Origin: Anniella stebbinsi
Taxonomy: Eukaryota; Chordata; Lepidosauria; Squamata; Anniellidae
Length of the DNA: 64,000 nucleotides
Direction: 5' to 3'
Assembly (NCBI GenBank): GCA_029215795.1
Contig: JARDYH010000002.1
Span: 15,617,001-15,681,000, forward strand
A model generated the notes under the pieces. The model was not told where the DNA came from. It made no database searches and was given only the letters and a program-made list of their open reading frames with translations. The position numbers were made by a program, and so were the translations under genes. Shown here piece by piece: positions 2,901 to 63,170 of this stretch (its first letter is position 1; each line of letters starts with the position of its first letter).

Positions 2901-2984
2901 ATGGATAATTCAGGATTTGAAATGGATGAAGACCTGCCTCAGAAGTCCTCAGCCAAAACAGAGAGGATAAAACAAGTACACCCA
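2901..2984 (+). CDS. Bicupin exon 1: cytoplasmic N-terminus
   Basis: The 28 codons start MDNSGFEMDEDLPQ and run to QVHP, followed by a consensus donor GTAAGT at 2985. The start codon has G at -3 and G at +4, a good Kozak context. The exon ends in phase 0, which fits the phase-0 start of the exon at 9136. Its product is acidic and then basic, suitable as a cytosolic tail before a signal anchor. The weakness is its short length and the 6.1-kb intron that follows. If the exon is wrong, translation would start at the methionine that opens exon 2. An acceptor-like CCTTCTTCAG ending at 2815 leaves room for an upstream non-coding exon. Confidence 0.68.
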
Positions 2985-5900
2985 GTAAGTTGTTATCTTA
3001 GCTCTATAGGCAGCAATCAGGTCTAGAAACGTGTGTTAAAGAATATGTAGAGAAGTGGAAGAACCTTGAGAATGGGCAGCCAGATTTTGTTGCTCACCAC
3101 AATTCTACCTAGTTCTGAAGAAATAGGCATTCGCTGGATATCTAGAACTGAACCGGTCAAAGCAGGAGCCCACTTTCCATTATGATAATCCAGAATTTTA
3201 AAAAACGGTTCCCTCCCGCAATTTGTCTTTTAAAAAATCTGGATTTTCATGACATGCGAACTGGGCCATTACCTGCTAATGAAAAGCTGGTTTCTAAAGC
3301 AGTGAGGTTTGATACATAAAACTATTGGGAAAACAAAAACAAATAATCAAGGGTTGTCCTGGTACAGCAATATTTGTGTCCAGATTGATTTTTTCTTTCC
3401 CCCCCCTTTTTAAATTTTTTAATATATTACTTTAGATATAACAGAAAATAGAACAGTCCCCTAACAGTTGGGGTTTAATAAGCTGTTACAGAAACCTTGG
3501 TTAATACAATTTTAGGGGGGGAAACAAGAAAAAAGAAAGAAAAGCGAAACAAATAAACTAATAAATAAGTGTGCTGTATAATCTTCATTTGTTGTTAGAA
3601 TGTCCAAGTGCTCAGAGCGGAAGCTGGCATATATATTGTTGTAAGTCTGGTTGTGATGTATGCTAACAGTTCTGTTTTTCCATGGATCAAAAGCAAATCA
3701 TGAGTTATTTTTTTCTGATATTTCAGTACCATGCAGGTAAATTCAAATTATCCAGCTTTTTCCACTGCTGTGTAATTGTCTGGCTTGCGGCAATTAACAA
3801 AAATGATAACAAATCTTTTCATTTCAGATTTACATTAGATCCTTTGCATATTGATAGGAAAAATAGTTCTGAATCGTCTACAATCATTTCTCTACTAATA
3901 GCCATTATTTCTTTATGTACTAACCTGCAGAATCCCTGTATATGTGGACAGGTCCTCCATAAATAAATGAAAGTACATGCCTTTTACCCCGCAGCCTCTC
4001 CATCAAAAGGGGCTGCACGTTGAAGTGAAATGCACCAGCTGTATGGGTGTGTGATACCATCTGTGCAGTACTTTCAAAGAGGTTTCTCGGATAGAAGCTG
4101 CTATTGATCTGAGTGGTCTATTGTCCCATAATTTATTCCAACTAGCATCTTCTAATTCCCTTCCGAAATCTCCTTCCCACACTTTCCTCAAGCCCACCAT
4201 CGAACTCATCTGGGTGTCTATTAAGATAATATAAACTAAAGATACAATTTCCTTCCCTCCCTTCAGCATAGCTCATTCTAATCCTGCTAGGGTTCTGAGT
4301 GCATATGTCTTTATGTTAGGATCTCTGAGCAGGTGAGATAATTGCAATTCTTGTAGCCATCCTAGGCCTAGGTCTCCTAGGTCAGTTCTGAGTTGTTCTG
4401 TTGTTTTTGGCGTATTCTGAGCATAAAAATCTCTCAATCAAAAATATCCCTTATTTTCCCATTCAGAACTCCTAGTGACAACAGTTGTGTCTAAATTACC
4501 CGGATATATTTGTACTGGGGTGACGGGAGACCACACTGGAGACAGCCTGGCTTGCCACGTTTTTCCAGATAGTGAAAATAGTTTTGGTATACGAGTTTTT
4601 GATATTATCTAGCTCCTTTATTTTTATAGACTGAAAAGGGCCCTTGTTCAGCATTTCTTCTTCCAGACGTATCCAGTTTTTGTTTGCCTTCATAATGACA
4701 AAGTGGAGGTGCCGTAACTGAAAGGCTTCATAATATGTTGCAACGTGTGGGGAGTACCCAGCCTTCTCCACCTGTTATTTATTTTATTTTTTGTAGTATA
4801 GTTTTAATGACAGGCGAGGTGCTTTGGCTTGGAAGACAAATATGTTAAGTTGACTTTGCCAGGACTTTAAAAAAAATTGGCTGGAGGAAAATGGGTAAGA
4901 CCTGAAATAAGAATAGAAACCTGGGGATCAAAGACATTTTATACTGTAGCAATTCGCTCTGAAACTGACAGATTCAATATATTCCTTCAGGTCTGTAATC
5001 ACAGTTTTAATAAGGGGAGCATGATTTATTTCTAATAATTTGTTAATTTTCATGGTTATCTAAATTCCCAGGCATCTAAAGGAAGTTCTACAAATTGATG
5101 CTCCCAAAGTATGTCTAATAAAGTGTTGATGGTTGGGGTGAACATTGTGTGACAGTGGATTTTTCATAATTAACTTCTAAACCTGCCATGTGTTTGAAAT
5201 GTTCTAGTTCTTCCTTTAGCTTAGAGACTGACTGACGTGGGTCCCACAGCATAATTATCATGTCATCCGCATACATATTAATCACGTTTTTCACCCCGCT
5301 CCTCTGTATTCGATAACACCTGGGTGTTGACATATGATATCAGCCAATGGTTCCAGGGAGAGGGCAAAGAGCCGAGGTGACAAGGGGCAGCCTTGTTTTG
5401 TTCCCCGTTCCAAGCTGATAGATGGAGAGTCTGTATTGTTAGTACGCACTGTTCTGTCCAGATTGATCTTCTGATTCTGTTCTGATATACTTGGGAGAAC
5501 AGAATTTAGGGAGTAGCAGCAGGTAACATCCAGCACCTGAAGTCTAAACCTGTGGTTTTCCTGCCCAAGTCATCCAGCACCCAAAAGGAGGTTAACATTG
5601 CAAAGTTTGTGGGAAACAGAGGAAAGAGAATTCAGGGGTTTCCTCCCTTCTTCATCCCGATCAACGATGTCAGAATTGATAGTACCAGTCATGTGGTGGA
5701 TGGTTGAGATCCTTGGGAGCAGAAATGGGTGGTTGTGCGCACTTACCCTAATTTATTTTTATTCATTTATTACTTTTCTATCCCACCTTTCTTCCAAGGT
5801 GACCTACATAATTCTCCTTCCCCCACGCCCCACCATTTTATCCACACAACAGCCCTGTGAGTTAGGCTAGTCTGAGAGATATTGAGCTGTACAGTCATCT

Positions 5901-6912
5901 GTCAGGGATCCTTTAAGATGGATTCTTGCATTGTGCAGGAGGTTGGACTCTATGGCCTTATAGGCCCTTTCCAACTCTACTGTTCTAAAATAGGCTGACC
6001 ATATGAAAAGGAGGACAGGGCTCATGTAACTTTATCAGTTGTAGAGAAAAGGGAATTTCAGCCAGTGTTATTTGTATGCAATTAGTACCTGGAGAAATTC
6101 CCTCTTCATCACACCAGTTAAAGGTGCAGGCACTATACTAGAGTGACCATATACAAAAGAAGGCAGGGCCCCTGCAACTTTAACTGTTGTGATGAAGAGG
6201 GAATTTCACCAGGAACTAATTGCATACAAATGACACTGGCTGAAATGCTCTTTTCTCTACAACTGTTAAAGATAGTCCTCCTTTTCATATGGTCCTCCTT
6301 TTCATATGGTCAGCCTATCTAAAAGAAAAGGGGAAAAAAGAGCTTTGTGGTTGAGTGTGTGGATTTGGACTTAAGTTTTCGCAGCAGTAGACAAGCACTC
6401 TAACCACTACACTGCACTGGTTATGAGATTAAGTGCTGAAGCAAGAAAGCCTTAGCCAGCCAGGTGCATTTGCAAAACTGAATCTATTATCAGGTACAAA
6501 CCTGATCAACATCAACAGCTGAGGTACAAAAGGAGAAAGCACATACAACAGGAGGACAAGTCAAAGGGAGTGTGCTGAGCAAGAGAGCAAAGAAATACAT
6601 TATGATTTAAGGAACTGGATCTCTGTCCCCCAAATTTACCATTCTGTCATTTATTGTTATCTTTTTGGCACCAGGTCAAGACTTTCCTCTTCTCCCAGGC
6701 ATTTAACAGCATATGATGAGGGTGTTGTTGTTGTGCTTTGACCCAGAATTGTTGTTTTCTTAAGGATATTGTAATTATAACTTGTTTTTATTGCTTTTTA
6801 TGGTTTTAAATTTTGTATATCGGTGTTTTTAATGTTCAATGTTTTTTAATTTTTGTAAAACTCCTAGAGAGCTTTGGCTATGGGGCGGTATATAAATGGA
6901 ATTATTGTTGTT

Positions 6913-6943
<31 letters not shown>

Positions 6944-9900
6944 TTGTAAGGATAAGTAAGGTAAGAATTGCAGGTACTTTGTAGCAGTCTTAAGAGTTCC
7001 ATTCATTTAATTTCATTTCTAATATTTCTATACCACCCCATAGCCGAAACTCTGGGCAGTTTCATGTAATATACAAGTCTCGTCTCATCCCTTAACTAGT
7101 GACGTGTTCATCATTATGACAGTGAGGAAGTCTAGAGAGGGCAGCATTTTAACTTTTCCCGTTGTGTAAATGGCTGCCATTTATTCCATGTGGGAGAAAG
7201 GGTAAGACTTAAGGATGCTGTTAGGGTGGGAACTTAGCATGTCCTTGGTGACTTCAGCGTCTAGGTTGGATGCCATGTTGTGCCCTTTCTGAACTGAATT
7301 CTAAATTGAAATCTGTTTTAGTTTTGTTCTAGATAATTCAGTGGGAGTTATCGCACAGATTCTAGCTTGGTCATGCTACAATATGACAAAGGGGCAAACA
7401 CGTTGGAACTGGCTTTTTAAATATGATGGTGATAAATTTATGTGTCATGTATTGAGGCTGGTTTTTACACCTTGAGTCCCAGTATTGGGGAAAATGTGGG
7501 ATGATGATGATAATGATGAGGATGTTGAGGATGATTCAGACATAGCACTAAACCAATCCTTTAACATTGTGAGAATGAGCCCTCTGGGCTCACAGATCCC
7601 CACTCTTCCGATGAAGCTAGAAGGAGATTTAACTTCAATTTTTGCTTAACTGCACCTCAGAAGCTTTAGTTTGCATTTTTGATTAACTGCAGCTTGCCAT
7701 GTCATTTGAACTGGGACAAACTGCAGGCAATCTTAACTATGGCTTGTTGAAATAAAAGAACTTCAAGCTAAGGACATTGAAGAAATCCACAACAAAATCA
7801 AATGAATTCAAATTTCTGTGAATTCAACCCATGGATTCTGTAATGGACCAACTTTTCCCAAGTTGCACAGAATTCCATAGACTTGCGGACTTTTTTTTCT
7901 TTTCTTTTTTTAACTTTCTGGAATTTTACGCAAATACAGTCGTAGAATAATACATCATTTAAAAAACCCTGGCCAAAAATGTGCATTCCCCCCAAAGGCT
8001 AAAGCATGAAAATGACTTGGGGGGATTTGCACATTTTCACAAGTGCAAATTTGTCCAAATGCGAATGTGTGCAAATTTAGGAAATTGGGGAAAAATCTGT
8101 TTCTGTCAATGAACAGAATAATGGCACAAACGGTTCCTGCCAATCCGCGGACACTGACAGAGATAAGCTTGCATAGATTCTGACGTTCTAGACAAGTTCT
8201 AATCAAATCTAACTACCAATTGCAAGGCCTCACAGCCATGCCCAGACCTATACCTGACAGTTACGCTTATACGTTTGAGTTAACCAATATTCACTGGGTT
8301 TTCTGTTTGGGTTACGAAAGCTGGGTTTCCTGTTTCCCATTCAAGTTAGGGAAGTTTGGCTAGGCCAAATTAATGTAAGTAACAGGGAGTGTGTCAGGCC
8401 TGAAGGATCAATGGAAAGAGGAACCTTTCCATGCAGAGCAGAACAAAACCAGCTGGCCCTGCTCCCCGTTGCAGGATACTTACTAACTTAATAGGGCCTT
8501 GTGCCGGCCAATCCCCCCCACCCCGCCCCACTCTTCATTTGCTTTTAATTTTCTTGTTTCTTTGGCTTTCAATTGACATCTCATGTTCCATGGCTCAAAG
8601 GCTCTCAATATTTCTTAGGTCTTGAAGCTCATGGGTTCTTACTGTGCCATTGGATGGGGACAGTTAACAATCTTTTCCCCAGTTCATTTACACGTTTATG
8701 CTTCTGCACACCTAGGAAGCCTTTCAAGTATGTAGAAACTACTGCCTTATTTGGGGGAGGCCCCATTTAGCTCCCAAATTCGTTGGCGTGCAATCACCCA
8801 AGTTTACTGTTAGGAGAAAGGATGAGAGCCTATCTACACTAATGCTTTAAAATGGTTTATAACAGTTTTAAACTGGTTAATGACCATTATTGACCAGTTT
8901 AAAACTGTTATAAACCATTTTAGAGCAGTAGTGTAGATAGGCTCTACCTGATGCTTTCATGGTCAGAGTGTTTGATCCATAAGCTTGTTACCTGCTCCGA
9001 AAAGTTATGGGTAGGGCAGCTTATTCGTATATAGCAGGACTGTAGCAGTATTGTTCTGTTTGCTAATTCTGTAGAATTAGCTACTAATTCTTCCTGTTTG
9101 TTTGTTTGTTTGTGTGTTTGTGTGTTTGTTTACAGATGGAGACAAAAAGCCACTGGTCCAAGCTCAACTTCTTTCTGCTTTGCCTCCTGACCTGCATGAT
9201 AACTATTGTGGTGGGGGTGATAGTTTTGTCTCTGTTTTGGGTTAACGGCACCGGCTATAAGGCAAAACCAAGATATGAAGCGAACATAGAGAGGAGTGAA
9301 GTATTTCCCCAAGAAATCTCAAGGATGTCTCTGCCCCAAGCCCAGGTGGACACCAAGTTCCAATTTCTCCACCATCTCACTGCATCCAAGGTACGGCCGT
9401 TTAACCAATTCCCAAAACTTGTTTCACACAAGATAATTTATTTTGCCTCCATTATATAACAAAATGAGGAGCTATGCAGACTTATACAGACTTGGGCCAG
9501 ATCTACACCAAGCAGGATATAACACTTTGAAAGCGGTTTGAAAACGGTATATGGAATGTGTCCTGGGCCCCAACCGTTGTCAATACCGTTATAAACCGTT
9601 ATAAAGCAGTAGTGTAGATCCTGTCTCGGACAATTGATGGAGAGGACATAAAGCCCCAGAACAAGAGAACAGAGCCCTGCTGGATCAGGCCGAGGGTCCA
9701 TCTGGTCCAGCACTCTGTTCACACAGTGGCCAACCAGCTGTCTCACAGGGACCAGCGAAGCAGGACATGGTGCAACAGCCACTATAAGACACTGGGTCAT
9801 GTGCAGTGTTGCAGAGGCCTCTTGCTAGATGGATGTTCTATGTTTTATGGCAATATAAGTGAGACAATTAGCACAACTCACACTAAAAATAATATTAAAC

Positions 9901-12900
9901 CACTGCCAGTGGAGGTTGGTGGCTCCTGTTCCAGAGGGGTGGTGAATCCGTTCAGAACTCTAAAGCAGCTATCCAAGGTGTGGGACCCATTTTGGGAGTA
10001 TGGTTCAGCACTTTGGATAGCTCCTTTAGAGTTCTGGCTGCTCCTGACTATGTGTTGAGGTGTTGCCTCAATAAACCATCTCCCACATCTCAAACTGCTC
10101 TGAGTTTTCCCATTTGGAATCTCATGGTAAACGTTCTTACCTTCCAGCACTTTATCCTGGACTTGGAATCTAACTATGTTCCTTGGGCCATGTTTTCTTT
10201 TAGTGCAGCTATTTGTCAAGATCCACAAGTGATTCGCGTAGTAATTCTACTTCAGATACACGGAAGAGGTGGAAACAGTTGTTCAAGAATCTGGAAAAAA
10301 ATTAAACTAACAGATGTCATTTTATGAACCAGATCAATCCTAACAATATCTATTGTTGACTCTGGCTCCACTCCCTGACCCCACCCACGGAATCAGCATC
10401 CTTTGATATCAAATATTAGCAGCCATTTTCAGGATCGGGATTGGTGGTTCATTGGATTTTTTTAAAAAAAAAATTATGTAGGACTTACAATCATAAATAT
10501 GACTGGGTTTATATGATTTGATCCAGAAATTCGAATTCCCAGGTGGTACTATCCAGTGGTCCAGATTTCGGAAAAATGCCAACCAATATGACAATGAAGA
10601 AGACATGCAGTTTGGACAAAGTATCAACAATCAACGCTCCAAGATTACGTTTGGAACTTTACTGCTAAAGAGTAAAGGCCTGCGTGTTCCACACTGGCAT
10701 TCCAATGCCAATGAGCAAGGCTACGTCTTAAAGGTACTGTTTTGGTTGGTTGTTTATGTAAGGTGTATCCTACCTTTCTGATGGAAAGAACCCCAAAGCG
10801 GCAAACAACAACAATAAGAACAGTATAACAAAATATCGTAACAAATATACACACCAATGTATAATAATAGAAGAGGATGTGTCTGTGTCTGTCTGTCCAT
10901 CATTGCCATAGCACCAACATGATAAAACCTAGACAACGGACACTTGGCATGCATACTAACGGGATCCTAAGGATGTGCACTTCAGGGATATTTTGTTTTT
11001 AAAATCCATTAATTGATTTTAATTTAAGTGTGTCCATGTGGATGAAGCCTGTAGTTCCACCTTCAGTAACTAGGTGGTAAGCTTCCCTATCCAGCATGTA
11101 GCTTTGCAGTTGATGTAGTTTGAACCCAAGGGGAGATTAGTAGTTCAAGAGATACAGGCTGAATTCGGACGACATATTAAGCAACGGAGGAGGGGGGGAA
11201 CAATCGTCAGTTGTGTTGCTTATTTTGTCGTGTGGGGAGTAACACACAACACACACACAACTGACAGTATGCTAAACGGGCAATTTAAACAACGGAGGGA
11301 AACAACGGGCTTGCACGTTGTTTAGCCCCAAGCACCGTTGCTTAAAGTGCCGTCCGAATTCAGCCCTCCCTCTCTCTGTGGACTATTCCGTTTGAGGATA
11401 GAGTTCTGCTGGCTAGAGCAGCCGAAAACCCCCGGCTGCTCTATACAGCCAGCAGAACTCACGGTGCATGCTGGGATATGGCTGGGGGACTGAGGGAGGG
11501 GGAGGTAGGAGATGCTGCAACCAAAATGGCCACCGCACGTTCGTAGCAACCGGGGCATTTGCCGGTGCCGAGAAGCGCTGGCTGCAGCATGTCGTCTGTG
11601 GAGCTCCACCTGCCTAACGCATTGTCAGTAAGCTATTTACCCCTCCGTTGCCTAATATGTCATCCGAATTGAGCCACAGTCTTATGTTTGCTCCCTTCCC
11701 CACTGCAGTGAGGCTATCCCTACAGGGCAATGGAGTGGGGGGGGGACAACTATGTTTATGGGTGCCAGAGGGAATCATTTCACTCAGACAGGTTGGGCAC
11801 AGTGTGTCCAACTCTGATAGCTGCATATGTTTGCTTGCAGTCTTCCTTGTATCAATAGGCTGACCATATGAAAAGGAGGACAGGACTCCTGTAACTTTAA
11901 CAGTTGTAGAGAAAAGGGAATTTCAGCCAGGGTCATTTGTATGCAATTAGTTCCTGGTGAAATTCCCTCTTCATCACAACAGTTAAAGTTGCAGGGGCCC
12001 TGCCTTCTTTTGTATATGGTCACTCTAGTATATGGTCTGCAACTTTAACTGTTGTGATGAAGAGGGAATTTCACCAGGAACTAATTGCATACAAAAGACA
12101 CTGGCTGAAATTCCCTTTTCTCTACAACTGTTAAAGTTACATAAGCCCTGACCTGGATTTTATCTGGTCACCCTAGTCACTGTAACCAAAAGGGGGCTCC
12201 TTCAGGAGGAAAGAAGGAGGAAAGAGGGAGTTTGGAGGAGGAATGAATGAATGAAAGGGCAAGACGAAGCGCTACATCAGCCTTCCCCAACCTGGTGTCT
12301 TGCAGATCTTTTGGACTTGAACTCCTATGAACCGTAGCCAGCATGGACAATGATCAGGAATTCTGGGAGTTGTAGTCCAAAACATCTGGAGGACACCACG
12401 TTGAAGGAGGCTGCTCTAGTTCCTAAACACTTTTAAAACTGTTTCATTAAAATATATATTCAACACACTGCACTGGATCAAGAGCACTGGTGCAGAAGAC
12501 TGTTCAATACATTTCAATAATCCCTAAATGTCAACATTGTTTAAGGAACTGCTGGGGGCTCCGTTTTCTGCACCATAGTGGTGCTGTAGGAACGACACTC
12601 ACGTGCATTTCCAGTTTGATATACAAATCCTAGTTCTCTCTCTGCTTATGCTTTTCAGGGCACATCTTGGATTGGGGTAGTTGATGCTGGTGGAAATACA
12701 GTAACTACATACAATGTCACGGCGGGCCAGCTCGTTTTCTTCCCTCGAAACACGCTGCATTGGCTCAAGAACGTCGGTGCAGAAGATTGTTTGTTTTTGC
12801 TGTTTTTTACAACCCACGAGGAGCTTCAGACGGTGGATGTGGATGATGCATTTTTCTCAACGCCTGAAGACATTGCTGCAAGGTCATTAAAGGTCTGTAC

Positions 12901-15900
12901 AGAAAACAGATACACCACATCATCATCATGATGGTCACAATTATTCTGTTAGTCACATCAGTCACAGGCATCATCACATTAAAAGAAAACTATAGAGAAA
13001 ACCTTCAGAAACTGGGCCTACCAAAATACATCCACACCAACATCCAGAAAGCAGTCATAATTAAAACATGCTCAATCGTCAGGAAATTCCTGAATCAATA
13101 AAAGACAGCATGGCTGGTTTCGCACGACACATTAGGCAACCGGGGGGGGGGGGGAGCAACCGTCAGTTGTGTTGCTTATCGTGTCATGTGGAGGGTTACA
13201 CACCACGCACACACAACGGACGGTATGCTATTCTGCCCAATTAAGCAACGGAGAGAAACAACGGAGAGAAGCCCGTTGTTTAAAGCGTCGTCCAAAACCA
13301 ACCCCACTCTCTCCGTGCACTATTCCGTTTGGGCATAGAGTTCTGCCTGCCGGAGCAGCCCAAAACCCCAGCTGTTCTGATACAGCCGGCAGAACTTGCG
13401 GTGCATGCTGGGATATGGCTGGAGGATTGAGGGAGGTGGGAGGGAGGAGACGCTGCATCCAAGATGGATGCCGGAACTTTCAGCCGCTCAACAGACGGGG
13501 TAGCAACGTGTCGTGTGGGGAGCACTGCCTACCTAATGCACGGTCAGTACACTATTTCCCCCTCCGTTGCCTAACGTGTCGTGCAAAACCAGCCCATGAC
13601 TTGGCAAAGTCCGTCATGTCCTTCTAGAAAAACCACCGAGAGTGAGAAAGTGATACATATTAATAATATAAAAATATCGACAAATGCTGCGATTTTCATT
13701 ATAAATATATGCTCATTAGGGAGTCATGATTGGTTATAAATCCTTCTTGGGCTGCCTCTACAAGAAAGGTTTAAAGCTCTTTCAAGGCGCTTTAAAAAAT
13801 TTACCTCTACAAGAATGGAGCACAAATCGGGCGTAGAGGCGCGTTATCTCTCCGATTATGCGCATTATCGAATGCGCGTTTAATCGCGAGTTTTATTTTG
13901 CTCCGGCCGTTAAAGCACATTTTGACTATGTGAACAAGCGCTTATGCGCATTAACTACTTGTAAAGCGCATTTTGGTCATCTGTTAATGTGCTTCGCCGC
14001 CTCTCGTGCAGAGGTATTAGGTGTAAATGCGCTTCAGCGATTATGCGCATAATCGCCTAACCGGGCGCAAAAGCGAATCCTTGTAGAGGGGACCTTGGGC
14101 ATATGCCTTTTGACAAACGCATTTCCTTCTGTGTCATATAGGAAACAATCCTAAGTTTTCACCAGCAATTGGCGACAAATTTTCTCCATGTTCATCCATA
14201 GAAACCTTTTTTTTCCCTATTAAAGAAGACTTTAATGTCTTTTAACTTGGCACGATGCATTCAGTTCCTCCCATCCCTGCCTCTTTTAAAGCTGAAGCCA
14301 TTTTCATTCAAACTTTTATTTGCTAAATGCAATATTTACTGTGCGTGTGTTTTAGCCAAAAGGTGGAGTGGACTTCATCAGGACATTCCAGAAGCAAGCA
14401 GAAGACCAGGCTATCAACCTTCCACCCAATCTAGCAGAGCTCGTCCATAACCCCAAGTATGAACAGTCTAAGGATGCTCTTGTGTGGCGGTACTTCTTTA
14501 ACCTCAAAGGTACTACACACCAAGCTATGATAGCCTGACCTCTGTACCTGGACAACAAGCAAGGCAGGTCACTTCTTCAGCACAGGGTCCAGATAAAGTA
14601 GCGAACAACACTCGTCCTGGGGACGTACCCCCAGACTTCTAGCGCAGCAAGGCATCAGTGACGTCACCATCTCCCTAGGTGCACAAAATTTCCAGCCAGG
14701 AAAGGATTGGCTAGAATGAATTGCGTAGCCCATTCTTGATTCCAGAATTTGTTCTGGAGCTGAGTACAACTCCTCTGCTCTCTGCAACTTCAGATCACCA
14801 ACTTTTCAGAGCAAAAATATTTGGAAAACCCAAAAAAGAGACACCCAGTGTGTGTGGGGGGGAATGACGTGCTTTCCAGAGGCCCCGGAAAGTGCGCTTT
14901 CCCCTCCTCCGCTCCTTAAAGGTTCCAATTGGAGCAGAGGAGGGAAAAGTGTGCCATTCCTCCCTCACCCCCCCCCCCCCCCGCACTGCTCCAATCAGGG
15001 TCTTCCATAATGTCCGGGAATGACAACGCTTTCCCCTTTAAGACCCCAATTAGAGCAGTGAGGGGAATGATGCACCTCCAGAAAGCACATCATTCTCCCC
15101 TGCCACACTAATGGTGACCTTAAAAGGGAAATCATGCCATTCCAGAAAATTACGGAAAATCCCCCCCCACCCCCGACACCCAGGATAGAACAAAAACCAG
15201 GACAAATCCAGGGCTTTGCTCATCCTTAATTAGCGAGTAAGTATAATATTCCTTTTAAAGAAAAGAAAGAAAATGACTTGAATTTATTGACGGTTCCATG
15301 GTTCAACATGGGCTTTAAAAAGAGGAGACAAAAGGAAAATGAGCTAGAAAGAGGAGGAAATGAGATGGAAGGAGAGATTTAGGAGGGAGGAAGGAAGGAA
15401 TTAAAGGGTAAGGTGAAGCTCTAGGTCAACCTTCCCCAAGCTGGGATCTTCCAGATGTTTGAGGCTTCAATTCCACATCAGCTCTAGACAGCATGGCCAA
15501 TGGTCAGGAATTCTGGGAGTTGTAGTCCAAAACATTTGGAGGACAGCATGTTGAAGAAGGCAGTTCTAGATCCTAAACTCTTTTGAAGCTGTTTTGTTTC
15601 AACACACTGCAGTAGATCAAGAGCGTTGGTGCAGAAGACTGTTCAACGCATTTCAGTATTCCCTAAATTCTTGGCCGAGGCTGCTCCATCTACGTAGTTC
15701 TGAATTCTGTACACCAGCCTTCCCCCACCTGGTGCCCTCTGGATGTGACTGGCTGCAGAATTCTGGGGGTTATAACCTAACACACCTGGAGGGCACCAGG
15801 TTGGGGAAGGCTGGTCTACGATGACAGGCAGCGATTCTCCGGGGTTTCAGGAAGGGTGTTTCCCACCCCAGTCTGGAGATGCTTGGGATCAAACCTGAGG

Positions 15901-18468
15901 ATCTCTGCATGCAAGGCATTTGCTCTATACTTCAACTATGACATCTCCCCAGGCAACAAGGGTACCCTAGCAAATAATGTAAGCGAAGAAACGTTCTATG
16001 ACTACCACAAAGAAGTTCTACAACCCTTTCCTGATCACTGAAGCTGCAATGTTATTTCTTCATTCAGAGTCGACCGAATTCCATTTTCCAGGGGGAATAA
16101 TGCAGTGGGCTCGGTATGTAAAAGATGGTAAAGGCCTGAAACCCAACGAAAGAATTTACAGCGAGTTTCTCCATGTGGTAATTATTCAGATATAAGGTGC
16201 TATCTTATATGCAGGGCTACACAAAATTAGAGATCTGATTCAGATATGTCAATTAAAACTCCTGCAAACGATGAAATTTGTATCTCTTAATTCTTTGTAA
16301 CAATAACATATAAAGGATGATATAAAGAGCTTTTCTGCCCATGGTATTAATCATGTGCTCCTTATTCCCTCCTCACAGTTGTTTACGGGTTCTTTAGTCA
16401 ATGTTGTGACCCTCCAGTTTCGCTTCTGTATCTAACCAGCACTTTCAGTGATTTTCTTTATAGTACAGAAAACATGGCACTTAATTATAAACATGAAAGA
16501 AAACGTGATTTCCTCTTGTGTATTTGTGCTATTCTGCTATTACACAGCTCCACCTAGAGGTTATATAGCAGAAAACCAGGAAAACCTTATATAGTGCTCA
16601 GAATTCAATTCTGTGATGAAACCAAAAGTAGATAAAGTGGATTAACAGCTAACAGTGTTGTGTAGAAAAGCTCATAACCTCTACTTGCACCCTGGTTGCT
16701 AGCATACGAACTCCATAGTTCACATCTTCTTTTTCTCTTCTTGTTCTCAGAAAGAAGATGCTCTTACCTTGGGAACACTCAGGATTTATAGCACTGGTCT
16801 ACGGCAGCCACACTTTCACTTCAATGCCAATGAGATGGGATATGTCATCAGTGGGTGTGGAAAGGTAGCTATTTAATTTGAACCTCTATGATAGAAGTGA
16901 TAGTGAATCTTCCTAATTTTAGGGTGACCATATGAAAAAGGAGGACAGGGCTCCTGTATCTTAACACTTGTATAGAAAAGGGAATTTTAGCAGGTATCAT
17001 TTATATGCATGCAACATCTGTTGAAATTCCCTTTTCATCACAATGGTTAAAGCTGCAGGAGCCCTGTCCTCTTTTGTATCTGGTGAAGAGGGCAGGGCTC
17101 CTGCAGCTTTAACTGTTGTGATGAAGAGGGAATTTCACCAGCTGCTGCATGCATACAAATGACGCCTGCTGAAATTCCCTTTTCTATATAAGTGTTGAAA
17201 GGTACAGGAGCCATGTCCTCCTTTCCTTATGGTCACCCTACCTAATGTCAGGGCTCTGGAAATCCCCACCCCTTGCACTGGTGTAGTGAGGCAAGAAAAT
17301 CAAACTGGTCCAGCTATGCTTTACTCAGGTTTCCAGCAAGCCCCTGTGTATTGAAGCCCCTGATTTGGCTCTTGCTGACATGACAAAGAACTGGGTTTGT
17401 GATGGGATCCTTTTTTCTAAAGTCCCTTGAGAGTTGCAAGATCAAATTGTCTGGATATATGATTGTATTTCCCATTGCTGCATCCTTTCTCCAGGTGGGT
17501 GTGATAGTTTCAGCTACTCTCACCACTGACTTCACCATCAGCGTTGGAGACGTTGTGTTTTTCCCCGTTGGAACACAACACTACATCAAGAGCACATGTG
17601 ACGAGGACTTGCTTTTCATTTTGGCATTCAGCACTGGAAACCAGGTGAGAAATTGACTTTCAGATGTGCCCTGCAGATGTGTTGGACTGCAACTCCCATA
17701 ATTCCCAGCCAGCATAATTCACATCTGCTGGGCACTAGGCTGCAAAAGGCTGTCCTAGGAGTTGTGCTGAGCTTGCCTACAATTCCCAGCAACAACCCTC
17801 AATGAGTTATTGACCCGGTTTGCACATCCTAGTAAGCCGCTATGGGATAATTCACCCATGGGGCTCCGAGACCTACACCAGACACCATTTTGAATATGTA
17901 AGCCACGGTGGAGGTGCTTCATGGCTTGTGTTGTTCAAACCTGGGCATTATGCATTATTTGAGGGTTAACCCTCAAATAGCCCATGATGCCCAGGTTTGC
18001 AGGATACGACAAGTTGCAGTGCACCCCTGCTGCTGCTTGCATATTCAAAATGGCGGCCAGGATGCATCTTGAATTAACCCGCAGTTACTGATTGTGACAT
18101 GTGAACCAGTCCATTGTGAACCAAATCCAAGTTTAAATGTTTTCAGAGATTAAAAAAGACATAATATTCATAATAGTACTTACTGCATATGATGGCAATT
18201 TTAAACGTTTTTTTTTAAATGTTCATTAACACCTCCACTCCAAATGTATATATTTCAATATAACACATGAATAGTATGTTAAAAATACTAACATACCTTC
18301 TCCACAATGCAAATGTTATTTGTTTTTTGGCAGTTGGAAACTCTTGATATGGATGACTATTTCCATGCTACAGCAGACCATATACTGGCTCAGCTTTTCT
18401 TCAAAAAACAAGAGGAGTTTAAGAAGATTCCAAAGTTTAAAGTGGATCAAGCAATTAATCTACCATAG
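2901..18468 (+). CDS. Membrane-anchored bicupin (oxalate-decarboxylase/germin-like), nine coding exons
   Basis: Joined exons 2901-2984, 9136-9390, 10527-10733, 12659-12892, 14356-14509, 16068-16177, 16751-16864, 17495-17644 and 18334-18468 total 1443 bases and encode 480 residues plus stop. Residues 1-37 are polar and acidic. Residues 38-64 are one hydrophobic span with basic residues before it and an N-G-T sequon just after, so a type II membrane protein is likely. Cupin 1 (about 114-310) has PHWHSNANE with His169, His171 and Glu176, then His216. Cupin 2 (about 312-480) has PHFHFNANE with His369, His371 and Glu376, then His415. Both domains begin with a PGG-x-x-QW-[SA]-R motif and end in QAINLP, so they are duplicates. 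Metal binding (Mn, Fe or similar) is family knowledge; the substrate is unknown, and oxalate decarboxylase or oxidase chemistry is only one option. I cannot assign a gene symbol. Confidence 0.86.
3393..5545 (-). mobile_element. 5'-truncated L1-type LINE, ORF2 RT and C-terminus
   Basis: Read on the minus strand it has reverse-transcriptase motifs RGTKQGCPLSPRLFALSLEP (5291-5536), MYADDMIIML (5115-5333), and further down LKVLHRWYHTP and a WRGCG-like end (about 4003-4269). These are the RT fingers, the catalytic YADD and the C-terminal region of L1 ORF2. Frames are broken many times and the T-rich block at about 3393-3420 is the likely poly(A) tail. It lies antisense in intron 1 of the bicupin gene and is inactive. 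Confidence 0.8.
5755..5992 (+). mobile_element. LINE-tail fragments: L2-like tail then CR1-like 3' end
   Basis: 5755-5875 is the common squamate tail with TATCCCACCTTTCTTCCAAGG and ACAGCCCTGTGAGTTAGGCT. 5885-5992 holds GGTTGGACTCTATGGCCTTA and CCTTTCCAACTCTACTGTTC, typical of CR1 3' ends. The strand and exact split between the two are uncertain. Confidence 0.5.
5991..6317. mobile_element. hAT-like MITE, TAGGGTGACC family
   Basis: Ends TAGGCTGACCATATG and CATATGGTCAGCCTA are inverted repeats of more than 100 bases. TCTAAAA flanks both ends (5984-5990 and 6318-6324). It carries the family interior AACTTTAACTGTTGTGATG and GAGGGAATTTCACCAGG. Confidence 0.8.
6640..6945 (+). mobile_element. L2-type LINE 3' end
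   Basis: It starts with a piece encoding HQVKTFLF-like C-terminal residues, then an AT-rich 3' UTR, GAGAGCTTTGGCTATGGGGC-GGTATATAAATG, and a (TAA)n tail at 6914-6943. The same tail appears antisense at 19080 and 50590. Confidence 0.7.
6914..6943 (+). repeat. (TAA)n microsatellite
   Basis: About ten TAA units forming the tail of the L2 fragment. Confidence 0.9.
6985..7085 (-). mobile_element. L2-type LINE tail, antisense fragment
   Basis: ATACCACCCCATAGCCGAAA followed by CTCTGGGCAGTTTC is the reverse complement of the tail motif at 6860-6900. Confidence 0.55.
8825..8945. repeat. Near-perfect 53-base inverted repeat (intron 1)
   Basis: Arms AGAGCCTATCTACACTAATG and onward match their reverse complement at 51 of 53 bases around a 15-base loop. 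It is a short palindromic MITE of the TCTACACT group, lying about 190 bases before exon 2. Confidence 0.85.
9136..9390 (+). CDS. Bicupin exon 2: transmembrane anchor and stalk
   Basis: A T/G-rich tract ending TTTACAG precedes the exon and the donor is GTACGG at 9391. It encodes residues 29-113 and is phase 0 at both ends. METKSHWSK is followed by about 27 hydrophobic residues (LNFFLLC to LSLFWV), then NGTG, an N-glycosylation sequon. The remaining stalk, including YEANIERSEVFPQEI, leads into the first cupin. There is no cleavage-site-like small-residue motif after the hydrophobic span, so a signal anchor is more likely than a cleaved signal peptide. The exon has its own ATG as the first codon, which could act as an alternative start. 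Confidence 0.87.
9494..9630. repeat. Palindromic MITE, GGGCCAGATCTACAC group (intron 2)
   Basis: GGGCCAGATCTACACCAAGC to GTAGTGTAGATCCTG with an ACGGTTTATAACG-like core. Relatives at 42722-43160 and 50901-51023. Confidence 0.65.
9655..9850 (+). repeat. Interspersed repeat, CCCTGCTGGATCAGGCC type (intron 2)
   Basis: GCCCTGCTGGATCAGGCCGA, CATCTGGTCCAGCACTCTGT and CACAGTGGCCAACCAGCTGT are words of a repeat common in reptile genomes. Class not certain. Confidence 0.55.
9930..10045. repeat. Inverted repeat in intron 2
   Basis: CAGAACTCTAAAGCAGCTAT and ATAGCTCCTTTAGAGTTCTG are inverted around GTGTGGGACCCATTTTGGG. No second copy noticed. Confidence 0.55.
10527..10733 (+). CDS. Bicupin exon 3: first cupin, metal motif 1
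   Basis: The acceptor is TTTGATCCAG and the donor GTACTG at 10734. The exon encodes residues 114-182 in phase 0. It opens KFEFPGGTIQWSRFRKN, continues through a polar acidic loop (NQYDNEEDMQFG) and ends GLRVPHWHSNANEQGYVLK. With the first residue of exon 4 this matches cupin motif 1 in the form G-x4-HxH-x4-E-x6-G. His169, His171 and Glu176 are the expected metal ligands. The N-A-N-E run is reminiscent of the 11S-globulin and oxalate-decarboxylase branches of the family. Confidence 0.9.
11157..11675. mobile_element. Harbinger-like element, GGCTGAATTCGGAC family (intron 3)
   Basis: GGCTGAATTCGGACGACA to GTCATCCGAATTGAGCC with ACA on both sides (11154-11156 and 11676-11678). The interior has GGCAACGGAGG-like arms, CAACTGACAGTATGCTAA and a GC-rich centre with GGATATGGCTGG. 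Confidence 0.75.
11856..12175. mobile_element. hAT-like MITE, TAGGGTGACC family (intron 3)
   Basis: Starts TAGGCTGACCATATG and ends ATCTGGTCACCCTA with the family interior. The two ends differ from each other and no target duplication is visible, so it may be a recombinant of two subfamilies. Confidence 0.75.
12190..12545 (+). repeat. Intronic segmental duplication, copy 1 (intron 3)
   Basis: A purine-rich start (GGAGGAAAGAAGGAGG), a palindromic CCCCAACCTGGTG-type repeat at about 12278-12413, the line CCTAAACAC-TTTT, the exon-4 relic and the words TTTCA-TCCCTAAAT appear in the same order as in 15335-15680. Because the order is shared and includes gene-specific sequence, this is a local duplication and not two independent repeat insertions. 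Confidence 0.65.
12462..12504 (+). pseudogene. Relic of bicupin exon 4, upstream copy
   Basis: This 43-base stretch in intron 3 matches exon 4 positions 12749-12791 at 35 of 43 bases by eye. Read in the same frame it gives NTLHWIKSTGAEDC, against NTLHWLKNVGAEDC in the exon, and keeps the metal-ligand histidine. Similarity fades on both sides and there is no matching acceptor, so it is a decayed exon piece rather than a usable alternative exon. Confidence 0.6.
12659..12892 (+). CDS. Bicupin exon 4: first cupin, metal motif 2
   Basis: The acceptor is GCTTTTCAG and the donor GTCTGT at 12893. It encodes residues 183-260 in phase 0. It contains AGQLVFFPRNTLHWLKN, which is cupin motif 2 (G-x5-P-x-G-x2-H-x3-N) with the usual second glycine replaced by Asn213. 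His216 is the fourth metal ligand. N201-V-T203 is a second possible glycosylation site. A 43-base part of this exon, positions 12749-12791 covering His216, also occurs as decayed copies at 12462 and 15601. Confidence 0.9.
12918..13108 (+). mobile_element. R4/Dong-type non-LTR retrotransposon, ORF 3' end
   Basis: An open stretch after a CATCATCATCATGATGG word ends LQKLGLPKYIHTNIQKA and KTCSIVRKFLNQ, then TAA at about 13099. I recognise this as the C-terminal signature of R4/Dong (R2-like) retrotransposons. It is severely 5' truncated. Its 3' flank is the start of a Harbinger-like element at 13112. Confidence 0.65.
13112..13594. mobile_element. Harbinger-like element, same family, GGCTGGTTTCGCAC ends (intron 4)
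   Basis: GGCTGGTTTCGCACGACA to GTCGTGCAAAACCAGCC with CAT at 13109-13111 and 13595-13597. It abuts the R4/Dong 3' end. The end sequence differs from its relatives while the interior is the same, which marks a subfamily. Confidence 0.75.
13753..14093 (+). mobile_element. MITE with CCTCTACAAG ends and TGCGCA palindromes (intron 4)
   Basis: TGCCTCTACAAG to CTTGTAGAGGGGAC. CTTGGGC occurs on both sides (13746-13752 and 14094-14100), a 7- or 8-bp target duplication. The interior has repeated GATTATGCGCATAATC-like palindromes and GCGC-rich words unlike the AT-rich surroundings. Confidence 0.75.
14356..14509 (+). CDS. Bicupin exon 5: inter-domain helices
   Basis: The acceptor is GTGTTTTAG and the donor GTACTA at 14510. 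It encodes about residues 261-311 and ends in phase 1, the only non-zero phase in the gene. The product is PKGGVDFIRTFQKQ, then QAINLPPNLAEL and HNPKYEQSKDALVW. This is the helical tail that closes cupin 1. The words QAINLP recur as the last residues of the whole protein, so the exon corresponds to the C-terminus of cupin 2. Confidence 0.87.
14797..15235. mobile_element. Non-autonomous element with CCAATTGGAGCAG core
   Basis: GATCACCAACTTTTCAGAGC and AACCCAAAAAAGAGACACCC at one end, CAGGACAAATCCAGGGCTTT at the other. The core has alternating CTTTCCAGAGG, TTTAAGG and CAATTGGAGCAG words. Related to 48423-48843 and 33426-33775. Confidence 0.55.
15335..15680 (+). repeat. Intronic segmental duplication, copy 2 (intron 5)
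   Basis: It repeats the order of 12190-12545: purine-rich block, palindromic repeat at about 15423-15567, CCTAAACTCTTTT, relic exon piece, TTTCAGTATTCCCTAAATT. The divergence is substantial, so the duplication is old. Confidence 0.65.
15601..15643 (+). pseudogene. Relic of bicupin exon 4, downstream copy
   Basis: It matches exon 4 positions 12749-12791 at 36 of 43 bases by eye but carries a TAG where the exon has Trp217, and Gln in place of the ligand histidine. It lies in intron 5, inside the second copy of the intronic duplication that also carries the first relic. Confidence 0.6.
15713..15817. repeat. Squamate palindromic repeat, CCAACCTGGTGCCCTC family (intron 5)
   Basis: CCAGCCTTCCCCCACCTGGT and GGCACCAGGTTGGGGAAGGC are near-perfect inverted arms. 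Confidence 0.7.
16068..16177 (+). CDS. Bicupin exon 6: start of second cupin
   Basis: The acceptor is TTCATTCAG. The first two bases complete the split codon from exon 5, giving Lys-Glu-Ser-Thr. The product STEFHFPGGIMQWARYVKDG is the second-domain equivalent of KFEFPGGTIQWSRFRKN in exon 3. The donor is taken as GTAATT at 16178; a GTGGTA three bases earlier would remove one valine. It covers about residues 312-348. Confidence 0.85.
16335..16668. mobile_element. GGGCTTTTCTACAC family element (intron 6)
   Basis: GAGCTTTTCTGCCCATGG to GTTGTGTAGAAAAGCTC with CAGTTGTTTACGGGTTCTTT inside, collinear with the copy at 48040. Confidence 0.65.
16751..16864 (+). CDS. Bicupin exon 7: second cupin, metal motif 1
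   Basis: The acceptor TTGTTCTCAG is preceded by a strong pyrimidine tract and the donor is GTAGCT at 16865. It encodes residues 349-386 in phase 0. It includes LTLGTLRIYSTGLRQPHFHF and then NANEMGYVISG, matching G-x4-HxH-x4-E-x6-G. Ligands are His369, His371 and Glu376. The exon aligns with the second half of exon 3, but the intron before it has no counterpart in the first domain. Confidence 0.9.
16920..17240. mobile_element. hAT-like MITE, TAGGGTGACC family (intron 7)
   Basis: TAGGGTGACCATATG to GGTCACCCTA. Flanks CCTAATTT (16912-16919) and CCTAATGT (17241-17248) match at 7 of 8 bases. Confidence 0.85.
17495..17644 (+). CDS. Bicupin exon 8: second cupin, metal motif 2
   Basis: The acceptor is CTTTCTCCAG and the donor GTGAGA at 17645. 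It encodes residues 387-436 in phase 0. VGDVVFFPVGTQHYIKS is a near-canonical cupin motif 2 with the expected glycine and with His415 as metal ligand; the final Asn of the consensus is Ser. The strand CDEDLLFILAFSTGNQ aligns with AEDCLFLLFFTTHEE of exon 4. Confidence 0.9.
17656..17760. repeat. Squamate palindromic repeat (intron 8)
   Basis: TGCAGATGTGTTGGACTGCA and ACTCCCATAATTCCCAGCC are the family interior; arms are worn. Confidence 0.5.
17812..18112. repeat. Palindromic repeat, ends near GGTTTGCACAT / ATGTGAACCAGTCC (intron 8)
   Basis: GACCCGGTTTGCACATCC to TGACATGTGAACCAGTCC. The centre has an inverted pair around TGAGGGTTAACCCTCA. Resembles 31725-31965. Confidence 0.5.
18334..18468 (+). 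CDS. Bicupin exon 9: C-terminal helices and stop
   Basis: The acceptor is TTTTTTGGCAG. It encodes LETLDMDDYFHATADHI and a basic helix, ending KFKVDQAINLP and TAG at 18466-18468. LETLDMDDYF parallels LQTVDVDDAFF of exon 4, which supports the domain duplication. The 3' untranslated region runs about 110 bases to the poly(A) signal. Confidence 0.88.
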   Translation: METLDMDDYFHATADHILAQLFFKKQEEFKKIPKFKVDQAINLP

Positions 18469-19074: not shown

Positions 19075-20165
19075 ATTCTTTCATTTATTTATTTATTGAT
19101 TGATTTTTTATACCGCCCTATAGCCGAAGCTCTCTGGGCGGTTCAAAAAAATTAAAACCATGAAATAATTTTAAAAATATAAAACAAACCACAATCTAAA
19201 AACACATAATAACATACAATATAAAAACACAACCAGAATAAAACCAAGCAGCAGGAATTAATACAGATTAAAATACAAATTTAAAACAGCAAGAATTAAA
19301 ATTGAGTTAATTTAACTGTTAAAATACTGGGAGAATAAAAAGGTCTTCACCTGGTGATGAAAAGAGTGCAAAGTAGGCGCCAGGCGAACCTCTCTGGGGA
19401 GCTCATTCCACAGCCGGGGTGCCACAGCGGAGAAAGCCCTCCTCCTAGTGGCCACCTGCCTCACTTCCTTTGGCAGGGGCTCATGAAGAAGGACCCCTGT
19501 AGATGATCTCAGGGTCCGGGCAGGTACATATGGGAGGAGGCGTTCCTTTAGATAACCTGGCCCCAAGCCGTTTAGGGCTTTAAATGTTAGTATCAGCACT
19601 TTGAATTGGGCCCGGATCTGGATTGGCAGCCAGTGAAGTTGGAAAAGGACTGGCATAATATGGTCTCGTTGGCCAGTCCCCGTTAACAGTCTGGCTGCCC
19701 TGTTTTGTACCAGCTGAAGTTTCCGGACCGTTTTCAAAGGCAGCCCCACGTATAACGCATTGCAGTAATCCAAACGAGAGGTTATGAGAGCATGGATAAC
19801 TGTAGCTAGGCTATCTCTGTCCAGATAAGGGCGCAGTTGGTATATCAGCCTAAGCTGGTAAAAGGTGCTCTTTGCCACCGAGTTCACCTGTGCCTCAAGT
19901 GACAGTTCTGGATCCAAGAGCACCTCCAAACTACGGACCCGATCCTTTAGGGGAAGTGCAACCCCCTCCAGAACAGGGTGAACATCACCTCGCCGGACAG
20001 ACGAACCACCCACAAACAGTACCTCCGTCTTGTCTGGATTGAATCTCAGTTTGTTAGCCCTCATCCTGTCCATTACCGTGCCCAGGCACTGATTCAGAAC
20101 AACCACTGCCTCACCTGGGTTTGATGAAAAGGAGAGCTAGAGCTGGTGTCATCCGCATATTGATT
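19075..20165 (-). mobile_element. 5'-truncated L2/CR1-clade LINE, ORF2 C-terminal part
   Basis: A 264-codon open frame on the minus strand (19312-20106) reads the region after the RT catalytic site: NKLRFNPDKTEVLFVGG, SRLDYCNALYVGLP, RKLQLVQNRAARLL and HWLPIQIRAQFKVL. The sequence breaks off at about 20165 just at the YADDT-like catalytic motif, so the element is 5' truncated. The 3' end has the GGGCGGTATAAAAAATCAATC-type tail with TAAA repeats near 19080-19140. The long open frame suggests a fairly young insertion. Confidence 0.85.
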
Positions 20166-60304: not shown

Positions 60305-63170
60305 AGTTCCTTCTCCTCTTTATTTATTTATTGATTGATTGATTGTATTTTTATTTATTTATTTGATTTCTAACCTGCCTCTCCATCCAGATCGAGGCGG
60401 GGAACAACAATAAATATAAATATAAAAATCATAAAACATATAAACCATTGAAACAGATAAAAACAAATACACTATTAAAAAATCTTAAAATTCAACTGGG
60501 TAGGCCTGCCGGAAGAGAGCAGTCTTCATGGCTCTCTTAAATTCAAGAAGACTGCTAATTTGTTGAATCTCCTCCGGCAGGCCATTCCACAGTCTTGGAG
60601 TGGCAGAAGAGAAGATCCTCTGGGTAACACTCGTCAGCCTAGTTCTGGCTGACTGGAGTAAATTCTTCCCAGAGGACCTGAGTGTGCGGGGCGGATTAGA
60701 CGGGAGAAGGCGATTCCGCAGGTAACCTGGACCCAAACCATGTAGGGCTTTAAAGGTAATAACCAACACTTTATACTTTGCCCGGAAACTAATTGGCAGC
60801 CAGTGGAGTGATTTTAAGATTGGTGTAATGTGGTCTCCCCTGGGTGTACCAACCTGGCTGCCATATTTTGAACTAGTTGAAGTTTCCGGACTAGGCACAA
60901 AGGTAGCCCTATGTACAGCGCATTGCAGAAGTTGAGCCTCGAAGTTACCAGTGCATGCACTACCATCTTTAGGTCTTCCAACTCTAGGAAGGGGCACAGC
61001 TGGCGTATCAGCCGAAGCTGATAGTAGGCACTCATGGCCGTCGCATCTATCTGAGCTGTCATTTGGAGCGATGGATCCAGGAGTACCCCCAAGCTGCGAA
61101 CATAGTCTTTCAGGGGAGGTGTAACACCATCCAGAACTGGTTGACACACCTCCAAACCCAGGTTGGGGCCCTTGACAGCAAGCATCTCCGTCTTGTCTGG
61201 ATTCAGCTTCAGTTTGTTTTTCCTCATCCAGCCCATTACTGCCTCCAAGCATTCATTCAGAGGAGACACACTATCCTTAGCTGACGATGTTGTCAAAGGC
61301 ATAGAGAAATATATTTGGGTGTCATCAACATACTAATAGCACCCCGCCCCATGCCTCCGGATGATCTCTCCCAGCGGTTTCGTATAAATGTTAAACAGAA
61401 TTGGGGAAAGAATGGCATCTTGTGGTACGCCACACAGCAGCTCCTTCTTTGCAGAGCAGCTATCCCCAAGCATCACCATCTGGAACCTACCCGAGAGATA
61501 GGACTGGAACCACTGAAGCACAGTGCCCCCGATTCTCAATCCCCTCAGGCGTTCCAGAAGGATACCATGGTCGATGGTATCGAAAGCTGCTGAGAGGCCC
61601 AGGAGTACCAACAGGGACACACTCCCCTTGTCAATACTCAGGCGTAAATCATCCACTAAGGTGACCATAGTGGTCTCAACTCCGTATCCTGCCCTGAAGC
61701 CGGTTTGAAATGGGTCTAGAAAATCTGTATCATCCCAAACTGCTTGGAGTTGGAAGGCAACCACCCTCTCAATCACCTTGCCCAAAAACTGAAGATTTGA
61801 TACTGGCCTGTAGTTATTAAGGTCCAGAGGGTCCAGGGAGGGCTTTTTTTAGAAGCGTCCGTACTACCGCCTCTTTTAAACATGTTGGAAAACTCCCCTC
61901 CCTGAGAGATGCATTAATAATATGTTGTAGATGTGATCGAACTGCATCTCCTCCCTGGACGACCAGCCAAGAAGGGCAGGGATCAAGAGGGCAAGTCCTC
62001 CTCCTCACTTGTCCAAGCAGCTTGTCCACGTTCTCAGTACTCACCAACTGAAACTGATCCAGTATAATTCTACTTGTGGAGTTACTGGACACTCCATTGT
62101 CAGCTTCTGCTATAATGATGGTGCCTAAGTCGGCTCTTATCCGAGAGATTTTATCTGTAAAATGGTCATTAAAGGCATCACAGCGATCTGCCGAAGGCTG
62201 TAAAATCGGGTTTAGGGGGGAAGATGCCTGAGTTAGACCCCTCACCACCCTGAACAGTTCAGTTGGATGTGAATTCGCAGATGCAATGCGTGCAGAGAAG
62301 AAAGCTTTCTTTGCTGCACGTATTGCCACTCCATAGGAATGAAGATGTTCTCTATGTTGTGTCTTGTCGGATACAAGTTGAGTTTTCCGCCATCGGTGCT
62401 CCAGTCGTCCTTCCCGCTTCAGCTCCCTGAGATCTTCAGTATACCAAGGTGCCCGATTAGGAGCGGGTCGGAGAGGACGTTTGGGGGAGATTGTGTCGAT
62501 AGCCCTAGTTAGATCTTGATTCCAACTGTTAACCAGGGCTTCTACAGGATCGTCGACGATACCAGCCATAGCACCCTCTAAGGCTTTCTGGAATCCAAGA
62601 GGATCCATCAGCTTTCAAGGGTGGACCATCTTAATCGGTCCGCTACCCCTGCAGGGGCGGGTGGTAGCTATGATACTAACCCTGATCAGAAAATGGTCTG
62701 CCCATGACAACATGGAGGTATTTATCACCTCCGCCCACAGATCTGTCTGTTCGGAACTGAAAACAGCATCAAGGGTGTGACCTGCTGAATGTGTAGGTCC
62801 AGAGACCAATTTGGATAGGCCCATGTTTCTCATGGATGCCATGAACTCCCGAGCTGCACCTGATAAACTTCCTTCGAATGGGATGTTGAAGTCGCCCAGA
62901 ATCCCTAGTCTATCCCTGGTCTTCAGACTCAGGTACACACACTCGATGTGATTCAATTCACAAACAGGAAGTCTGGTCAGGTTAAGATAGTCTTTGTAGA
63001 CCACAGCTACTCTGCCCCTCCCCGCCCACTTTCCCTCACCTGCTCACTGACACAGTACCCAGCTGGGAGGGCCTGGGCCCATATCGGGCCACTGTCATCT
63101 CCCAGCCAGGTCTCTGTGAAACATGACCTCTTCCTCCTCCCACATGCATTGCTCTCAAGTGTACAGCAGA
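60305..63170 (-). mobile_element. Long degenerate L2/CR1-clade LINE: endonuclease, RT and C-terminus
   Basis: From right to left on the minus strand it reads an endonuclease (FTETWLGDD near 63110; GDFNIPFEGS, 62615-63004), a linker (61817-62608), RT with AAFDTIDHGILLERL and GVPQDAILSPILFNIY (61333-61785), YVDDTQIYF just after a stop at about 61334, and the C-terminal region (60485-61302) with SRLNFCNALYIGLP. Several frameshifts and the stop beside the catalytic motif make it inactive. The tail has TTTATTTATTGATTGATT repeats at 60310-60360. It is the most complete mobile element in the window. Confidence 0.85.

Follow-up and report, generated by a model that had tools for sequence, protein, structure and literature searches.

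The gene described here is, judging by its sequence, almost certainly the squamate orthologue of CUPIN1, a jawed-vertebrate gene for a bicupin with a type II membrane anchor. It lies in a 64,000-nucleotide stretch of the genome of the lizard Anniella stebbinsi (JARDYH010000002.1, 15,617,001-15,681,000, forward strand), referred to below as the window, and the coordinates given are window positions. Nine exons at 2901-18468 (+) join into a single stop-free frame of 1443 nucleotides, giving a protein of 480 amino acids (54.8 kDa). The identity of the gene is secure; that its product is an enzyme is something we infer from the residues it keeps.

The similarity to the CUPIN1 group runs over the full length of the protein, including the anchor and both cupins. 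For example, proteins of cat and pig, whose clusters bear the name “cupin superfamily member 1,” cover 100% of the query with 62% and 61% identity. The closest relative of ordinary length among the matches listed, an alligator lizard orthologue (P0002), has 83% identity across 99% of a 470-residue model in which exon 3 starts at 10557. This model was the query in the homology searches, while the Pfam and NCBIfam profiles were run against the 480-residue protein, with which P0002 aligns free of gaps except at the start. The protein search matched 172 proteins at E <= 1e-3, with taxa and names taken from 120 of the 172. Every named organism among the matches listed is a vertebrate: lizards, snakes, turtles, an alligator, the tuatara, and birds; marsupials, one monotreme, and many placental mammals, including a lemur; and frogs, salamanders, caecilians, the coelacanth, a sturgeon, a chimaera, and rays. 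Full-length relatives are found in cartilaginous fish, the coelacanth, amphibians, reptiles, birds, and mammals, the lemur among them.

CUPIN1 is already a named gene in horse, dog, cat, and cow (VGNC:84140-84143) and is recorded as orthologous to the human pseudogene CUPIN1P (HGNC:54490) (PMC8574622). No structural difference was seen between the mammalian genes and the lizard gene; the human copy is listed as a pseudogene in the same source, whereas the lizard copy is intact. The original prediction presented the protein as an uncharacterised bicupin of amniotes. This holds insofar as no functional study of CUPIN1 was found among the paper titles listed, but the presence of CUPIN1 in the curated nomenclature of four mammals means that the gene is named and curated rather than unknown, and its range extends to cartilaginous fish. 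One hint of expression comes from a figure legend on sheep cecal epithelium, which includes “CUPIN, cupin superfamily member 1” and gives no direction of change (PMC10100782). The usual annotations of the matches are “uncharacterized protein,” “dynactin-associated protein,” “oxalate decarboxylase OxdC-like,” and “legumin J-like.” Some CUPIN1 proteins are also labelled as lung adenoma susceptibility protein 2 and, once, as ATF-4. The frog Pelodytes ibericus has four cupin proteins of 474-694 amino acids (P0001, P0009, P0090, and P0110), all recorded on contigs of one and the same length, which suggests a local expansion of CUPIN1.

A search beyond vertebrates, using slices of five of 57 aligned sequences and candidates of about 130-413 amino acids, returned 66 proteins, and all of the named ones were from vertebrates, including a tarpon, which is no proof of absence elsewhere. 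Two heptapeptide patterns matched 10 stretches in prokaryotic contigs, and none of these was a relative by tblastn. The alligator orthologue has matches in 65 plasmid records, at about 24% identity among the matches listed.

The nine exons, their GT-AG borders, and their consistent phase had been proposed from the letters alone, and the gene model bears this out. All eight introns are GT-AG, seven of them in phase 0 and the eighth in phase 1. When pieces matching the exons in length were taken at random from window positions 20000-63000 and concatenated, none of 20,000 trials was free of stops. Exon 1 (2901-2984, +; residues 1-28) carries the start codon and the cytosolic tail (MDNSGFEM...), and its start is supported by the consensus of 57 orthologues, which begins MDNxAFEM. 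Exon 2 (9136-9390, +; residues 29-113) supplies the end of the tail, the transmembrane segment at about residues 41-59 (the CLLAC region), and the stalk. Cupin 1 starts in exon 3 (10527-10733, +; residues 114-182), with R166, H169, W170, H171, and E176, and is completed in exon 4 (12659-12892, +; residues 183-260), which holds the N201 sequon, H216, and the lid glutamate E237. The acceptor of exon 3 was placed at 10527 because the orthologues carry the ten extra residues that it adds. The acceptors at 10543 and 10555 break the frame, and the one at 10557 keeps it open but loses these ten residues. The linker between the cupins is in exon 5 (14356-14509, +; residues 261-312). Cupin 2 starts in exon 6 (16068-16177, +; residues 312-348) with GGIMQWARY and continues through exon 7 (16751-16864, +; residues 349-386), with R366, H369, F370, H371, E376, and C384, and exon 8 (17495-17644, +; residues 387-436), with H415 and C421. 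It ends in exon 9 (18334-18468, +; residues 437-480 and the stop), which aligns with the C-terminal part of the OxdC cupin domain.

The protein begins with a tail of about 40 residues; a single hydrophobic segment comes next, and a stalk joins it to the two cupin domains. An anchor followed by two cupins had been predicted. Hydropathy in a 19-residue window peaks at 3.01 over residues 41-59, and the suggested check against Pfam Cupin_1 gave matches in two stretches, with an E value of 1.5e-35. The motif R-x2-H-x-H-x4-E occurs at residues 166 and 366, and FFP-x4-H at 209 and 408. Basic residues precede the membrane segment and sequons follow it, N65 just past the segment and N201 further on, so the protein is probably a single-pass type II anchor with an N-glycosylated ectodomain, in agreement with the original prediction. 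The N201 sequon is retained in 114 of 121 aligned rows, and the glycosylation site and cysteines are conserved among orthologues. In the window protein, the CLLAC profile PF15675 reaches 16.3 bits, short of its cut-off of 25; it scores 49.9 bits in the lemur orthologue and 41.0-51.4 in three mammalian partial models. The predicted structure of P0002 has a mean predicted local distance difference test (pLDDT) score of 76.5, with the tail, the stalk, and part of the linker under 50.

Both metal sites are intact, again as proposed. Each cupin of the window protein has three histidines and one glutamate, and all eight ligands are present in 106 of 108 alignment rows, where the denominators are the rows that could be scored at each column. 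The N-terminal substrate arginine (R166) is kept in 113 of 114 rows, and glutamate occupies the E237 column, which aligns with the lid residue Glu162 of OxdC, in 118 of 120. The cupin 2 substrate arginine (R366) is kept in 99 of 116 rows. Glycine replaces it in 16 rows, all of them birds by name, in which the metal ligands are kept; the alignment indicates that many birds have lost this one substrate residue.

The closest solved structures by sequence are oxalate decarboxylases, and by fold the storage globulins are nearly tied with them. In Foldseek and VIA-align, each of the 50 matches listed per method was an oxalate decarboxylase, MncA, or a seed globulin. Plant 11S/7S seed globulins share the bicupin fold with CUPIN1. 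They differ from it in their storage role, in the usual loss of their metal ligands, and in having no membrane anchor; CUPIN1 keeps all eight ligands. Compared to OxdC of Bacillus subtilis and MncA of Synechocystis, CUPIN1 has a membrane anchor and insertions before each HxH motif, and the motif of cupin 2 is HFH rather than HWH.

Several features weigh against the reading of CUPIN1 as an oxalate decarboxylase. The window protein scores 114.5 bits against TIGR03404, where the cut-off is 254.2, and four orthologues score 131.4-152.7, so that all five proteins are more than 100 bits short. The lid is HEELQT, two residues shorter than the SENST-type lid. For the W96/W274 pair of OxdC, W170 is present in 114 of 114 rows, but the cupin 2 position is phenylalanine in 113 of 116, and the other second-shell tryptophans of OxdC are replaced as well. 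In OxdC, the W274F mutation leaves 0.20 of the efficiency per manganese and lowers the catalytic constant (kcat) from 89 to 1.1 per second (PMC8254039). Membership in the OxdC family is thus unsupported by the curated score; that CUPIN1 works like OxdC is plausible. Of the predicted metalloenzyme acting on oxalate, then, the first-shell ligands, the substrate arginine, and the lid glutamate fit, whereas the family score, the lid length, and the tryptophan network do not.

The same pattern, in which the ligands and the arginine are conserved but the decarboxylase's lid length and tryptophan network are not, could be expected of a metal-dependent ectoenzyme with a different substrate and another chemistry, whether oxalate oxidase-like, a dioxygenase, or a superoxide-dismutating cupin. 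OxdC itself becomes an oxidase through changes in the lid (PMC3585803), and there are weak matches to other cupin families, such as (R)-mandelonitrile lyase at 6.4e-5. However, every NCBIfam match, the mandelonitrile lyase included, falls under its cut-off, and by sequence the best relatives with solved structures are oxalate decarboxylases, which leaves this alternative somewhat unlikely. The protein could also lack enzymatic activity and serve at the surface as a receptor or in adhesion, with the metal stabilising it; it would then be what the storage and binding bicupins of plants correspond to in animals. This is rather unlikely, since storage globulins usually lack the ligands, while CUPIN1 has all eight in nearly every scorable row and the N-site arginine in all but one.

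Since the orthologue in human is listed as a pseudogene (PMC8574622), the lizard gene might be one as well, or the model might be an artefact. Either is very improbable, given 1443 nucleotides without a stop or frameshift, the random concatenations that never stayed open, and, among the matches listed, an intact orthologue with 83% identity. The reading preferred here, a CUPIN1 orthologue with a catalytic role on a small carboxylate, is held tentatively, at slightly less than an even chance. The ectodomain would be exposed at the cell surface or inside the Golgi lumen, where it would bind two divalent ions, with manganese the most likely metal. Catalysis would take place at the N-terminal site, its arginine holding the small carboxylate and E237 serving as the lid acid, and the C-terminal site would give structural or redox support. 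The likeliest substrate would be oxalate or a close analogue. The animal would thus have an oxalate-degrading ectoenzyme that was lost in the human lineage.

The gene is apparently single-copy. Pfam PF00190 has a single match in the 1.89-Gb genome, in exon 4 of the bicupin gene, and no second copy was found in the 344 kb around it. About 140 kb downstream and on the same strand is an exon with 52 residues identical to a solved Rab-27B. The human order is STARD6, C18orf54, C18orf26 (DYNAP), RAB27B, CCDC68, and TCF4 (PMC2967069), and a second source agrees (PMC4868023). Taken together, these place the lizard bicupin gene upstream of RAB27B, where humans have DYNAP. On the other flank, LAS2/C18orf54 gave no match to PF15792, but no positive control matched either. 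Rab27 and CLLAC motifs had no match within the window, and the one CLLAC match outside it looks like chance.

DYNAP, which we take to carry a CLLAC-type anchor and presumably to lack a cupin domain, resembles CUPIN1 in its type II single-pass topology. DYNAP is next to RAB27B in human, and CUPIN1 is upstream of RAB27B in the lizard. When 183 residues of the lemur orthologue served as the query, 24 proteins matched, none of them named as human. The label “dynactin-associated protein” and the CLLAC matches in orthologues suggest that the anchors of DYNAP and CUPIN1 are related, short of a proven kinship in sequence. Human DYNAP has 210 amino acids and an outside tail rich in serine and threonine (PMC8329785). 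In macaque, the new centromere of chromosome 18 has been placed in a 0.247-Mb gap between C18orf54 and C18orf26 (PMC2646277). We infer that this gap is the expected place of the CUPIN1 pseudogene, and it may be a gene desert made by the loss of CUPIN1.

Other features of the window include two intronic stretches, 12401-12529 and 15551-15668, with 78% mutual identity. Each contains a 43-bp piece (12462-12504 and 15601-15643) with 81-84% identity to the segment of exon 4 that codes for the H216 region; from this likeness, they are perhaps relics of a partial exon duplication. Long open stretches at 19312-20136 and 60485-62614 (-) resemble, by eye, pieces of a reverse transcriptase of the long interspersed nuclear element (LINE) type.

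The broadest scenario, which is unlikely as a whole, is that most jawed vertebrates have their own cell-surface, manganese-dependent, oxalate-degrading CUPIN1, which was lost in the human lineage, as uricase was. The anchor may then survive as DYNAP, next to RAB27B, and the centromere of macaque chromosome 18 would have formed later in the emptied interval. CUPIN1 is strongly conserved in vertebrates and has an OxdC-like first shell; dog, cat, horse, pig, and reptiles have it at full length, and the human copy is a pseudogene, which makes it a direct candidate for a lost animal enzyme. If the scenario is true, the loss would help to account for oxalate being a dead-end metabolite in humans, and an enzyme working near neutral pH would offer an animal alternative to the bacterial one. 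The value of the finding is a testable claim, namely that many vertebrates, though not humans, have an OxdC-type ectoenzyme. Even with another substrate, a metal bicupin that is probably at the cell surface and that has persisted since the common ancestor with cartilaginous fish would mark a real gap in what is known of vertebrate proteins.
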